Source of the DNA: Fragilaria crotonensis
Taxonomy: Eukaryota; Bacillariophyta; Fragilariophyceae; Fragilariales; Fragilariaceae
Direction: 5' to 3'
Assembly: GCA_022925895.1 (NCBI GenBank)
Contig: JAKSYS010000222.1
Coordinates: 20,561 to 84,560, forward strand
DNA: 64,000 nucleotides
Positions 13,651-29,533 of the stretch are shown piece after piece. Position numbers and translations under genes: made by a program. Every line of letters starts with the position of its first letter. The stretch's first letter is position 1. The notes under the pieces were generated by a model, which did no database searches, was not told where the DNA came from, and worked only from the letters and a program-made list of their open reading frames with translations.

Positions 13651-14464
13651 GAAGATATCGGGAGAGTAGATGATTTGTGGCGATGCCAGATTCTGTTTTC
13701 GCTGGTGGTAAGAATTTCCCATAGGCCTCAGAGAATTCAGTTCTCTACAGTTCCAATTCGCACGGGCGTGCTTGCAAGATTGACGTGTCTGCGCACCTTC
13801 CCAGGCGTGTCTCATACGATATGCCTGCGTGACCGTAAGTGGTATAATACCATAGTACCAAAAAAATTGGATTGCAGATTGCAGTTTACACTACCTGGTA
13901 GTATACTACAAGTACTACACTTCAGGTGATGTATCGGACTATGATGTATGCGGATGCTCGTTCTTGTTATGTCACAGATACACATCATGTGTATAGTGTA
14001 CCTCTTGTTTTCGCTCGTATGACTCTAGGCGGGAGGGTCGGTGGTTCAAACCTCGATCCTTTGTTTTGAATTCAAGTCTTGTCAACTCGTTATGCACATA
14101 GGGGAAGGCCGCTCAGTGGGAAGGAATTTGGAGGGGTTACTTCGAATCTTTAGCATACTCTGTGCTGGAATAGAATTTGAATTCAAGAATGAAATTATAC
14201 ATACATTATAAAATACATAAGAGGCGATCGTGCAATTCTCCTATAGTGACACGATCGGAAACATGTGTGGTACACGTCATGTATAGTGGAGCAATGGACT
14301 GCTTAATGTATGATGTATTCCCACTACACACAAAGGGTGCGCTTACTCGGAAGTTCGCGGAAAAAAGCTTCCTTCAATTACATTGCGGCACAAGCTAAAC
14401 AAAAACGCAAGCATAAAGCGGAAAGGGCGGCAATATTACAAGCAATCTTTGAGAGAATCTTGTG
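13651..14464. other. Non-coding stretch between pseudogene and Cys-rich gene
   Basis: No supported gene. The last 60 bp (about 14405-14464) resemble the 5' flank of the chimeric copy at 12250-12317 (aaagggcggcaat and related words), so the promoter-proximal region was part of the duplicated segment. A GGTTCAAACC word near 14040 resembles a tRNA B box but has no matching T-stem or A box. Confidence 0.5.
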
Positions 14465-17143
14465 ATGCCTCCCATGAGATTGCTACTTCTTGCTTCGTTG
14501 GCTGTATCAGTCCAATCTCAATCTCAACCTTGCTCAGTATGCGGTGATGGAAAGACGGTAGGAGCGCCGGATGCCATCTTTTCTTTCCCACAACAACCTG
14601 ACGTCCCATGTGGTCTTTTGGAACTCGCTGGTAGTCTTGGTCAGATTCCACAAGAACAATGTGGCTTCCTCCCACGTCTTGTTGCCGAGGACTGCTCTTG
14701 CCAAGGACCCTCTGAGCCTCCTGCCGTGGCAACTCCAACCGCAGCGCCAATTCCCCCTCCGACTGCTAAACCAGTACCAGATCCGACATCACCACCAGTT
14801 CCAGATCCTACCAGCGCTCCTGTTCCTGATCCTACCGATGCCCCCGTGCCAGATCCTACCAGCGCTCCTGTTCCAGATCCAACCGAGCCTCCTGCATCGA
14901 GTGCCGGAACTCCAGTTCCTCTGACGGATGCTCCTGTTGTACCTCTGTCGGACGCTCCAGTGACATCGGCTCCTATACCAGTACCGACTACGTTTCCTTC
15001 CCAAACTGCGCCAATTTCAGCTCCACCACAGGAGCCATTTACCGAGGCTCCTGTATCGACTGATGCTCCCGTAATTTTGGAATCTCCGGTATTAGAACCA
15101 AGTTTGGGTGACCTTCCAACGATCGCGCCAATGATTGTGATTGAGGAACCTCCGACATCTGCTCCTCTGCTTGTGATTGAGGAACCTCCGACAGTGGTCC
15201 CAGTTCAAGTTGTTACACCAACTTTTGCACCAGCAGCTGTCACGATTCCCACCAAACCATCGCCAGTGTACAGTGGTGATGATGACGATGGTGACGACGA
15301 TGCTGGTGACAAGCCAGCACCATCACCTGTCAAGACACCTACCAAACATTCTCCAGTGTCCAGTGGTGATGATGACGATGATGGTGAGGTACCTGCACCA
15401 GCACCAGTTCCAAGCAAACCAGCTCCAACTAAAGAAGATGCGGGTAAGGGCAAGGGTGTTGTAGACAAAAAGCCCAAGGGCAAAAAGGATAAAAAGGCAA
15501 AGAAAGAAGACGACAAGAAGGGTCCGAAGGTAAAGAAGGGAGATGATGACGACGACGATGGCAAAGGAAAGGGCAAGGGCTCGGACGGAAAGAAGGGAGA
15601 TGATGATGACGATGATGGCAAAGGAAAGGGCAAGGGCTCCGATGGAAAGAAGGGAGATGATGACGATGATGGCAAAGGAAAGGGCAAGGGTTCTGATGGA
15701 AAGAAGGGAGATGATGACGATGATGGCAAAGGAAAGGGCAAGGGCTCGGATGGAAAGAAGGGAGATGATGACGACGATGATGGCAAAGGAAAGGGCAAGG
15801 GCTCCGATGGAAAGAAGGGAGATGATGATGACGACGATGGCAAAGGTAAGGGCAAGGGCTCGGATGGAAAGAAGGGAGATGATGATGACGACGATGCAGG
15901 TAAGGGCAAGGGCTCCGATGGAAAGAAGGGAGATGATGACGACGATGATGGCAAAGGAAAGGGCAAGGGCTCTGATGGAAAGAAGGGAGATGATGATGAC
16001 GACGATGATGGCAAAGGAAAGGGCAAGGGCTCGGACGGAAAGAAGGGAGATGACGACGACAACGATGGAAAAGGAAAGGGCAAGGGATCCGATGGAAAGA
16101 AGGGAGATGATGACGACGATGATGGCAAAGGAAAGGGCAAGGGCTCGGACGGAAAGAAGGGAGATGATGACGACGATGATGGCAAAGGAAAGGGCAAGGG
16201 CTCGGACGGAAAGAAGGGAGATGACGACGACGACGATGGAAAAGGAAAGGGCAAGGGATCCGATGGAAAGAAGGGAGATGATGACGACGATGATGGCAAA
16301 GGAAAGGGCAAGGGCTCGGACGGAAAGAAGGGAGATGATGACGACGATGATGGCAAAGGAAAGGGCAAGGGCTCTGATGGAAAGAAGGGTGGTGATGATG
16401 ACGATGATGGCAAAGGAAAGGGCAAGGGCTCCGATGGAAAGAAGGGAGATGATGACGACGATGATGGCAAAGGAAAGGGCAAGGGCTCGGACGGAAAGAA
16501 GGGAGATGATGACGACGATGATGGCAAAGGAAAGGGCAAGGGCTCTGATGGAAAGAAGGGTGGTGATGATGACGATGATGGCAAAGGAAAGGGCAAGGGC
16601 TCTGATGGAAAGAAGGGTGGTGATGATGACGATGATGGCAAAGGAAAGGGCAAGGGCTCTGATGGAAAGAAGGGTGGTGATGATGACGATGATGGCAAAG
16701 GAAAGGGCAAGGGCTCTGATGGAAAGAAGGGTGGTGATGATGATGATGATGGCAAAGGTAAGGGCAAGGGCTCTGATGGAAAGAAGGGTGGTGATGATGA
16801 CGATGATGGCAAAGGAAAGGGCAAGGGCTCTGATGGAAAGAAGGGAGATGATGACGACGATGATGGCAAAGGAAAGGGCAAGGGCTCGGACGGAAAGAAG
16901 GGTGGTGATGACGACGATGATGGAAAAGGAAAGGGCAAGGGCTCCGATGGAAAGAAGGGTGGTGATGATGACGATGATTCCGGCAAGGGCAAGGGCTCAG
17001 CCGAAGGAAAGGGCGTCGGCCCTAAAGGAAAGAAGGGCGATGATGACGATGGCGACGAAGGAAAGGGCAAAGGAAAGGGCTCTGAAACAAACATTGGCGA
17101 TGACGATGATGACGATGACTACAAATTAAAAACCGGCGAGTAA
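14465..17143 (+). CDS. Secreted Cys-rich protein with a long Lys/Asp polyampholyte repeat domain
   Basis: 892 aa from ATG 14465 (a second in-frame ATG at 14474 could be used). Order: signal peptide (MPPMRLLLLASLAVSVQSQS); a small Cys domain (CSVCGDGKTVGAPD ... PCGLLELAG ... EQCGFLP ... DCSCQ), about residues 20-80; a Pro/Thr/Ala linker with PVPDPT units; an acidic Ser/Asp section; a Lys-rich bridge; then about 25 copies of GKGKGKGSDGKKGDDDDDD, ending in a short acidic tail (YKLKTGE). The Cys module with a Pro-rich linker is typical of diatom extracellular proteins. Alternating Lys-rich and Asp-rich blocks resemble polyampholytes thought to interact with silica, Ca2+ or polyanionic wall polymers. 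A wall or mineral role is inference. No membrane anchor is seen. Confidence 0.85.
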   Translation: MPPMRLLLLASLAVSVQSQSQPCSVCGDGKTVGAPDAIFSFPQQPDVPCGLLELAGSLGQIPQEQCGFLPRLVAEDCSCQGPSEPPAVATPTAAPIPPPTAKPVPDPTSPPVPDPTSAPVPDPTDAPVPDPTSAPVPDPTEPPASSAGTPVPLTDAPVVPLSDAPVTSAPIPVPTTFPSQTAPISAPPQEPFTEAPVSTDAPVILESPVLEPSLGDLPTIAPMIVIEEPPTSAPLLVIEEPPTVVPVQVVTPTFAPAAVTIPTKPSPVYSGDDDDGDDDAGDKPAPSPVKTPTKHSPVSSGDDDDDGEVPAPAPVPSKPAPTKEDAGKGKGVVDKKPKGKKDKKAKKEDDKKGPKVKKGDDDDDDGKGKGKGSDGKKGDDDDDDGKGKGKGSDGKKGDDDDDGKGKGKGSDGKKGDDDDDGKGKGKGSDGKKGDDDDDDGKGKGKGSDGKKGDDDDDDGKGKGKGSDGKKGDDDDDDAGKGKGSDGKKGDDDDDDGKGKGKGSDGKKGDDDDDDDGKGKGKGSDGKKGDDDDNDGKGKGKGSDGKKGDDDDDDGKGKGKGSDGKKGDDDDDDGKGKGKGSDGKKGDDDDDDGKGKGKGSDGKKGDDDDDDGKGKGKGSDGKKGDDDDDDGKGKGKGSDGKKGGDDDDDGKGKGKGSDGKKGDDDDDDGKGKGKGSDGKKGDDDDDDGKGKGKGSDGKKGGDDDDDGKGKGKGSDGKKGGDDDDDGKGKGKGSDGKKGGDDDDDGKGKGKGSDGKKGGDDDDDGKGKGKGSDGKKGGDDDDDGKGKGKGSDGKKGDDDDDDGKGKGKGSDGKKGGDDDDDGKGKGKGSDGKKGGDDDDDSGKGKGSAEGKGVGPKGKKGDDDDGDEGKGKGKGSETNIGDDDDDDDYKLKTGE
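15532..16980 (+). repeat. Coding minisatellite, 57-bp period (54-60 bp), about 25 units
   Basis: The period is 57 bp (19 codons), with 54- and 60-bp variants that always differ by whole GAT/GAC codons, and one unit lacking six bases in the GKGK part (about 15895-15905). Unit subtypes (GGAGATGAT versus GGTGGTGAT junctions, TCG/TCC/TCT serine codons) occur in runs, as expected from recent unequal exchange. Because every indel is a multiple of three, the reading frame is kept throughout. Long open frames on the other strand and in the second plus frame are artefacts of this repeat. Confidence 0.95.
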
Positions 17144-27470: not shown

Positions 27471-29533
27471 TTATAATGTATGTTGGCAGCACGGTGTGCT
27501 ACCTTCTGGTACGCCATCGCTGTCACCATGGTCGAGAGTAACAGAGCCATACGATGTCGCGTTCGACGACTCACTACCAGTTGACGGCTGGTCTGGATGA
27601 TGAGGACAGCACGAGTTGGTTTGCACTCCAGCTTCGGCTCTGACATCCTTGGAGGGCGGCATCTTTGCAGCAAAGACAGCATCCTTGGCATTAAACAGAA
27701 TGTGGCCGCCAACAATGCCCAAGATGATACACATAAAGAGAGGACCTGAATAAGTCATAACGACCAACATGGCAAAGTACCCAATGGTAAGTTGGAGGCC
27801 GTAAAACATGGCGGAAGCAGCTAATCGACGGTAGCCTGCTCCCATGGATGATATGACCATGCGTCGACGCATGATTACAGCCTCCAAAAAGACGCCGACG
27901 ACAAGTGAGCCAATGGCGGCTGCCACAAACTTGCCCTCGGTATTCAAGACCCATTCCGGAAAGAGGTAAATGACACACACCGTGTCCATCCAATGGAAAC
28001 CATCCATGTACATGGAAGTGCCACCGTAGCAAAATGGTTCTTTGGCAGAGTTGGTGGAATTGTAAACGACGGATGTCGAGGGGACACCGGGCACCGTAAA
28101 TTGCCAACTGCCCATGCATTTGGCGTTGTGGACACCATAAGGGCATTCTGCAACGGCCTGTGCTACATCGTGACCCGATGTTGACAATGCATTTGGGTCA
28201 AGGCAGTATAACGAGTATCCCGAAGTGACGTATGATTCGGCACGATCCGCATTCGGAATGTCGAGACAACTCATCCAACAAAAAAAGTTGGTAGAATTGT
28301 TACAGTCGCCTGGGCTTCCAACCATTTGCAGGCGGCGGCGCGAAGGTACAATCGGAAATGGCAGTTTTGAAAAGTTCGGAGGCGAGGCAGCACTGGCCGA
28401 TCCGCATCCAATTGAGATGGAATCGGAAGTGTCACCTTGTCCGTATACTCGCTTGGAGGAGAGTGTCATCGACTGCTTCATTTCACGAAACGTTTTTGGA
28501 GGAGATTCCTGAATGATGGCACTTTCAGGAACCAAGTGCACTGTATTGGAAGGAATAAGATCAGGAACAGAATATAGAGAAGCATTGACGTTGGATCCAT
28601 TTGGTGACACTTACTCATTCCGTACCACGCTCGTTCGTCGCCCTTTTGCATGGTCACAGCGTGCCGAGTTGCTCTAAGTGGTACAGGAGAATGCAGCCAA
28701 TGTTCCGCCCCAGCACCGAGCATGATGGCAATAGAGTTTGGTTGAAATATCGCTCTCGTGCTCACGCCGTCTTCATCCTTGAACCAGAACGATTCGTCTG
28801 CATCGTGGTCACCAGTCGTAGACTCTCGACAATTCAAGGCAGGAACGAATGCAAGAAAGAGTCCAGCATCAGAATGCCAGTCCAAAGACGATTGTTCATG
28901 TGCACTCTTCTTAGAATACACGTGGAAATGTTCAAGATGATTTCCAGCCTTGACGATGGATGCCACACGATCATACGAAAGACCCTTGGAATCGCGCAAT
29001 AGCACCGAGCTGTAGTTGTTGTTATTGTTGCTGCTGCCGCTGTCACGAATCAAACGGTCCAAAGCGTCGACAAAGGCATCTGCAGCAACCGCAACTTCAT
29101 CACGAATCTGCTCCATGGAAGTTGCCGTATCCAGGCCACAATATTGTGCAAGATTTGTAGGAAGAGGACGAGGCGTGTTTCCGGCAGTCGCGGTTGCCAC
29201 GGTGGTTCGTACCGTGCTTCCGTCGTCCAGTAGTGCAGTGTCCGAGTTATCAACCTGTAAGAGTTGATTTTCACATCGACAGAGCCCATCGAGAGCGGCA
29301 TGTCGAAACATATTGTTGAAGGATGATGATTCAATAGACAAGAGACCAGTTGTCTTGAGGATAGTGGCAAACTCCTCAGATCGCTGATTCGAAAGGAGGT
29401 CCTGCAAGCTAAAGGAAGGGACAATTCTCTCTCCCGCTTGCGGTGGCATTCCTTCAACAGTTGAGAAGCATATGCTTGCTGCAGTCACCAACAGCAGCTT
29501 AAACAACGAGGGTATCATTTTGGATTGGATCAA
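27471..29533 (-). CDS. Fusion: secreted 2OG-Fe(II)-oxygenase-like domain + Ctr copper transporter
   Basis: Exon 1 is 29533-28615, the intron 28614-28541 (GTAAGTGT...AATACAG, 74 bp, phase 1), exon 2 28540-27471; 662 aa. N-terminal signal peptide (MIPSLFKLLLVTAASICFSTVEG). Next comes an isopenicillin-N-synthase-like domain: LDWHSDAG (HxD iron ligands, about 217), distal His in GAEHWLHS (about 278), RATRHAV with the likely 2-oxoglutarate Arg (about 287), RAWYGM across the splice. Then a Cys-rich ectodomain with SMYMDGFHW, and three membrane helices of the Ctr/SLC31 type: FPEWVLNTEGKFVAAAIGSL, then MLVVM (the MxxxM copper filter, about 567), then GIVGG. The tail is cytosolic with CCPHH and CCQH. 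Topology agrees: both the signal peptide and the Ctr fold put the oxygenase domain outside the cytosol. Predicted role: Cu(I) import coupled to an extracellular iron or copper domain. Confidence 0.85.
28541..28614 (-). other. 74-bp intron joining oxygenase and Ctr parts
   Basis: The minus strand reads A|GTAAGTGTCACC at the donor and TTCCAATACAG|TGCAC at the acceptor, phase 1 on both sides. Without splicing, exon 1 reads about 44 codons into a hydrophobic tail and stops at 28478, and exon 2 has only a weak GTG or ATG start, so the splice is well supported but unproven. Confidence 0.8.

Follow-up and report, generated by a model that had tools for sequence, protein, structure and literature searches.

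The minus strand of the window, by which we mean the whole 64,000-nucleotide stretch of DNA that was analysed, carries a two-exon gene whose product joins a Ctr/SLC31-type copper channel to a long N-terminal domain that resembles the 2OG-Fe(II) oxygenases. Its features, in the order of the protein, are:

28615..29518, minus strand: exon 1, residues 1-301, covering the signal-like segment and the greater part of the 2OG-oxygenase-like domain
29450..29518, minus strand: signal-peptide-like hydrophobic segment, residues 1-23, from hydropathy, with a putative cleavage site
28922..28939, minus strand: HLEHFH, residues 194-199, invariant in 4/4 aligned rows
28868..28876, minus strand: H215-x-D217, proximal pair of a putative metal site, invariant in 5/5 rows and aligned to the HxD of 2OG oxygenases
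28661..28663, minus strand: H286, putative distal metal ligand, invariant in 5/5 rows and aligned to the His of the HRV motif
28631..28633, minus strand: R296, putative 2OG-carboxylate Arg, invariant in 5/5 rows and aligned to the oxygenase Arg
28541..28614, minus strand: 74-bp phase-1 intron, GTAAGT...CAATACAG, across which matches to 5/5 other loci continue in a gapless alignment
27471..28540, minus strand: exon 2, which codes for the last part of the N-domain, the Cys module, the Ctr channel and the cytosolic tail, up to the stop
28116..28406, minus strand: Cys module, residues 347-443, with five Cys common to the paralogs
28329..28337, minus strand: R370-R-L372, an R-x-L tripeptide whose R and L are invariant in 5/5 rows
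27675..28013, minus strand: Ctr/SLC31 channel, residues 478-590, three predicted helices, from PF04145, a match to 6m97 and a low-confidence model
27990..28013, minus strand: Met motif MYMDGFHW, residues 478-485, before TM1, from hydropathy and motif
27756..27770, minus strand: MLVVM, residues 559-563 (MxxxM motif)
27705..27719, minus strand: GIVGG, residues 576-580 (GxxxG motif), 12 residues past MxxxM
27597..27611, minus strand: CCPHH, residues 612-616, Cys/His cluster motif of the cytosolic tail

The ATG at 29518 opens exon 1, which runs for 904 nt to 28615. The intron (28614-28541) starts with a consensus GTAAGT donor and ends in CCAATACAG, the acceptor CAATACAG being rich in pyrimidines, and exon 2 begins at 28540 and reaches its stop at 27471. 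Splicing gives a product of 657 aa rather than the 662 aa first proposed. The open frame is weak evidence for this splice because 60 GT..AG pairs provide one when introns of 40-400 bp and donors 750-1045 nt from the ATG are considered, and the splice is settled instead by the match to relatives. A search of the organism's own assembly (62,107,879 bases in 881 contigs) with the 657-aa product identified five other loci with the N-domain (C108:80077, C467:14516, C273:29270, C578:9491, and C273:10360), at E 1.4e-19 to 1.9e-4 and 30-37% identity, of which the intact copies at C108 (663 aa) and C467 (535 aa) each consist of one open frame. BLAST matches to all five loci cross residue 302, the position of the intron, and the product aligns with its paralogs without a gap at the junction (ERAWYG-M-MHL versus ARVWYG-R-MVL). 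Together with the consensus donor, this alignment bears out the 74-bp phase-1 intron of the original prediction. The unspliced frame stops at 28478 and yields 346 aa with a hydrophobic C-terminus, which is what might be seen if two adjacent genes, or a join in the assembly, had been taken for one. Such an origin is barely credible, and we reject it because the paralog similarity runs across the junction at 5/5 loci. The C108 match extends to residue 425, and Cys columns in common continue as far as C434, over 120 residues past the start of exon 2. In that exon the paralog-similar region and the Ctr channel share a single uninterrupted frame; a two-gene split would therefore have to cut inside an exon. 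Exons 1 and 2 almost certainly belong to a single gene, as had been predicted over separate transcripts for the two exons. With the intron retained (28478-29518, minus strand), the 346-aa product would close, in the manner of a membrane anchor, with its hydrophobic stretch followed by a tail of basic residues; its best 19 residues score 2.26 on the Kyte-Doolittle scale, and a T-rich intron could produce such a stretch by chance.

The C-terminal part of the product is recognized by the Pfam Ctr model (PF04145) at E 4.1e-12, with 47.3 bits against a curated cut-off of 25.3. It also matches the CTR1 crystal structure chimera 6m97/6m98 at E 7.4e-7. MYMDGFHW supplies the MxM motif ahead of TM1, hydropathy supports three transmembrane helices, and exactly 12 residues separate MLVVM from GIVGG, giving the MxxxM-x12-GxxxG arrangement that two reviews present as the signature of all CTRs (PMC9502191, PMC3103425). 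A single-sequence model of the Ctr part places helices at 54-82, 88-117, and 120-145 in that order, at low confidence (pLDDT 53.8), and a Foldseek search with this low-confidence model returned no Ctr structure and no match at E 0.001 or better. The cytosolic tail carries two Cys/His clusters, CCPHH and a CCQH at the end of the protein. The channel had been proposed from MLVVM and GIVGG, and both the family model and the exact spacing now support it; judged from these features, the product very probably forms a functional Ctr channel. When PF04145 was used as a profile to search the organism's own assembly at E 0.001, with exons scored apart and in an assembly that may be incomplete, the window gene was the only match. 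At E 10, there were three matches among four scored candidates, two of them in the window gene and one chance-like. The latter, a would-be second Ctr at C133 (L012), was rejected as chance (E 2.13, 14.1 bits, below the cut-off, with no matching gene in its frames). The window gene is thus the only Ctr over the cut-off found in the assembly, and further Ctr genes may exist.

The N-terminal half of the protein is less familiar. It begins with a hydrophobic segment that by hydropathy resembles a signal peptide, as had been noted, and the C108 and C467 paralogs begin likewise. Four residues, H215, D217, H286, and R296, are invariant in 5/5 aligned loci and readable in the sixth. Near-copies make up three of the five other loci, which brings the independent sequences behind this conservation to about four. 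H215-x-D217 aligns with the HxD of 2OG oxygenases, H286 with the His of their HRV motif, and R296 with their Arg. The HxD...H iron triad (H215, D217, H286) is present at the level of sequence, not structure, and R296 lies 10 residues past H286, within the 9-10 residues that separate distal His and Arg in IPNS-type enzymes. Both this His-to-Arg order and the 10-residue step agree with the isopenicillin N synthase class. The HxD...H...R pattern originally put forward holds for H215/D217 and needs correction elsewhere: the distal His is H286, at the end of RATRH, the Arg is R296, in ERAWYG, and R282 is invariant too, yet unaligned with the Arg of the oxygenases. EHWLHS (H273, H276) was rejected as the source of the distal His, since the paralogs have NQFINP or NQIINP in its place.

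Family libraries do not recognize this domain. Neither exon 1 nor the paralogs matched a relevant Pfam, NCBIfam, or PHROGs family up to E 5, a profile of the N-domain core retrieved no oxygenase from the PDB, and a PF03171 search of the organism's own genome found 13 places, the window gene not among them. The domain search that had been proposed for the whole product therefore recovered the Ctr channel and left the N-domain without a family-library match. We call the domain oxygenase-like rather than a member of the family because no PF03171 or related curated model detects it. A four-sequence family profile was aligned with hhalign to an oxygenase profile built from eight PF03171 proteins encoded in this genome, taken from ten fetched loci after leaving out L017 and L018, fragments that overlap or resemble L019 and L021. 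The score was 40.7 (E 5.6e-5), above all 60 column-shuffle controls (maximum 29.4, mean 13.9), above the reversed target (15.8), and above the same family profile set against a DOMON profile (13.2). The hhalign probability was 66%, falling to 34% with another column rule and rising to 86% in global mode. The window sequence alone scored 19.5 against the oxygenase profile, above all 40 shuffles (maximum 15.9), with the same residues aligned. Single paralogs did not beat their shuffles against this profile, the real score being reached in 4/40 for L3, 1/40 for L4, and 11/40 for L8. Structure modelling of exon 1 from its sequence alone was uninformative as to the double-stranded beta-helix and the meeting of the four residues in one site (mean pLDDT 33.8). 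The domain could instead be an unrelated, diatom-specific secreted domain that carries an HxD...H...R pattern by chance, which would sit well with the lack of a family-library or PDB match, with the moderate hhalign probability, and with the single paralogs that do not exceed their shuffles. We regard this as unlikely, since the family profile outscores all 60 shuffles and the columns that align are the four functional residues. The N-domain probably has the 2OG oxygenase fold, and the predicted secreted domain with kinship to 2OG-Fe(II) oxygenases ahead of the Ctr channel is upheld to that extent; that the domain is also catalytic is, from its residues, about an even proposition. In scans of five collections (three viral, two genome), no bacterial, archaeal, or viral relative was confirmed, all candidate stretches (88, 6, 2, 37, and 42 per list) failing tblastn confirmation.

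The five other loci have no channel at their ends. They share with the window gene the N-domain, its four site residues, the R-x-L tripeptide, and the Cys module, in which C347, C389, C393, C414, and C434 are common to the window gene and the paralogs. What follows the module differs from copy to copy. At C108 (L003), the tail consists of a DOMON-like domain and a Lys-rich end; against a DOMON profile of four segments cut by eye from 3/6 fetched loci, this tail scored 29.9 in hhalign versus a shuffle maximum of 19.4 (n=60), at E 3.7e-4 and a probability of 36%. The same tail had no Pfam match and three weak genome matches, none at DOMON places, and it is accepted as DOMON-like only, from the hhalign comparison. 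In C467 a run of Gly leads to a hydrophobic C-terminus that may be a GPI signal, and the tails of the copies at C273 and C578 are rich in Lys and Pro. Because these ends are DOMON-like, GPI-like, or Lys-rich, the oxygenase-like module appears to be a secreted unit of which Ctr is one of several partners. The loci L007, L008, and L009 (C273 twice and C578) are near-copies with differing frame breaks, two of which share flanking frames resembling reverse transposons; the shared flanks suggest recent segmental copies, pseudogenes, or assembly errors.

This distribution bears on what the N-domain is for. It had been proposed to deliver, sense, or reduce copper at the channel. That purpose, as put, lacks support: the module recurs with the same four residues at five loci without a Ctr channel, so that its basic role is not tied to copper import. 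In a noncatalytic version of the idea, copper would be caught by an N-domain rich in His (HLEHFH, HxD...H) and by the Cys module, and Cu(I) would be handed on to MYMDGFHW, much as Met-rich N-termini do in other Ctr proteins. The conserved His and Cys residues do lie directly before the Ctr Met motif, and Met or His motifs at CTR N-termini are described as capturing copper at the cell surface (PMC9502191). We nonetheless find such capture rather doubtful as the main role, as loci without a Ctr channel keep these residues and R296 as well, and a metal-capture role has no need of an Arg. In known members of the oxygenase class this Arg binds 2OG and not metal, and its retention at about 30% identity is the reason we infer that the N-domain retains catalysis, or at least binding of Fe(II) and 2OG.

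The explanation that we prefer is a Ctr/SLC31 Cu(I) channel that bears a secreted, IPNS-type 2OG-Fe(II)-oxygenase-like N-domain followed by a short Cys module. The N-domain would face the outside or the secretory lumen, and the tether would hold an enzyme, with substrates that are secreted or on the surface, at the channel mouth. This picture of an importer for Cu(I) with an attached IPNS-type domain, probably catalytic and located in the lumen or outside the cell, has in our view roughly equal odds of being right or wrong, its mechanism being our inference. Enzyme action on a metal-binding ligand or polypeptide might further be coupled to the withdrawal of copper into the cytosol; this coupling of channel and N-domain activities is put forward tentatively. 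An abundance of 2OG outside cells is not known, which counts against an oxygenase working in the lumen or the extracellular space.

The R-x-L tripeptide suggests yet another arrangement. R370 and L372 are invariant in 5/5 rows and lie between the oxygenase-like domain and the Cys module, so a cut at this site in the secretory pathway could free the oxygenase-like part of a precursor and leave the channel and Cys module to act alone. RXL is a feature of diatom biosilica proteins, and in silaffins it is removed proteolytically with the pro-peptide (PMC5525289). The position, however, is different: the known sites described there lie about 30 residues past the signal peptide (PMC5525289), whereas the site in the window protein follows a 350-residue domain. 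An R-x-L is also short, and it occurs three times in the 657-aa protein. Release from a precursor is distinctly unlikely on these grounds, and the tethered domain is the preferred reading.

A bolder form of that reading grants diatoms a family of secreted IPNS-type oxygenases and lets the enzyme in the channel mouth oxidise either a ligand that binds copper or the Cys module of its own protein; copper would thereby be freed, reduced to Cu(I), and imported by the same polypeptide. In a related version, the family would supply the hydroxylases that act on silica-forming proteins in the lumen, while the channel would keep competing copper off the iron site. We consider these proposals very unlikely as they stand. 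Most copper in natural waters is ligand-bound Cu(II), whereas Ctr channels move Cu(I), and release and reduction at the diatom surface are poorly understood (PMC9502191). If a channel had an enzyme-like domain built into it, it would offer a direct handle on this surface release and reduction. Silaffins, for their part, bear hydroxylated Lys and Pro (PMC3806462), and, independently of the channel question, a secreted oxygenase-like diatom family provides named candidates for lumenal hydroxylation.

The two halves of the protein can each be set beside a known system. Ordinary Ctr members have short Met-rich N-termini. The window protein shares with the Ctr/COPT/SLC31 family (PF04145) the MxM before TM1, the MxxxM-x12-GxxxG, three predicted helices, and the Cys/His cytosolic tail, and differs in an ectodomain of about 450 residues that includes the oxygenase-like part. 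Known IPNS-type 2OG oxygenases are mostly cytosolic. With that class (PF03171) the N-domain shares the HxD...H...x9...R order and a column-by-column alignment, and it differs in lying below PF03171 detection, in being secreted, and in its fusion to a membrane channel. There is a parallel in another alga: the Chlamydomonas CTR1 and CTR2 proteins, reportedly described by Page et al. in 2009, are said to have a Cys-Met motif and a long Cys-containing extracellular part on a Ctr channel, and no oxygenase-like domain is known in them. Kong and Price are said to have studied diatom CTRs in 2018. Passages on the Ctr N-terminus in two reviews give Met/His motifs only (PMC3103425, PMC9502191). The literature covered on Ctr-oxygenase fusions and algal CTRs, which includes few subscription papers, contains no description of a Ctr channel joined to an oxygenase domain.

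Domain scans covered 19/28 long open frames of the window. The scanned neighbours encode a kinesin, ankyrin proteins, a pseudouridine synthase, a zinc-type dehydrogenase, a ZZ protein, and copia-like elements, with no copper-linked neighbour among these 19. The copia-like elements account for several long frames at 42230-63709, in which RVT_2, gag_pre-integrase, and SH3_retrovirus domains occur. At 14453-17143, five overlapping frames of 530-896 aa on both strands lie in or beside a strong GC skew and are perhaps a repeat; the one frame scanned there had no Pfam match. Elsewhere in the organism's own genome, the silicic acid transporter family gave nineteen matches, the best at E 4.0e-193, which mark the organism as a diatom. 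Fused silicic acid transporters are known in araphid diatoms, and the open frames at C97:29749-33762 (1456 aa) and C771:21664-24330 (1008 aa), with three and two silicic acid transporter matches, respectively, are fused multi-unit transporters of this kind.
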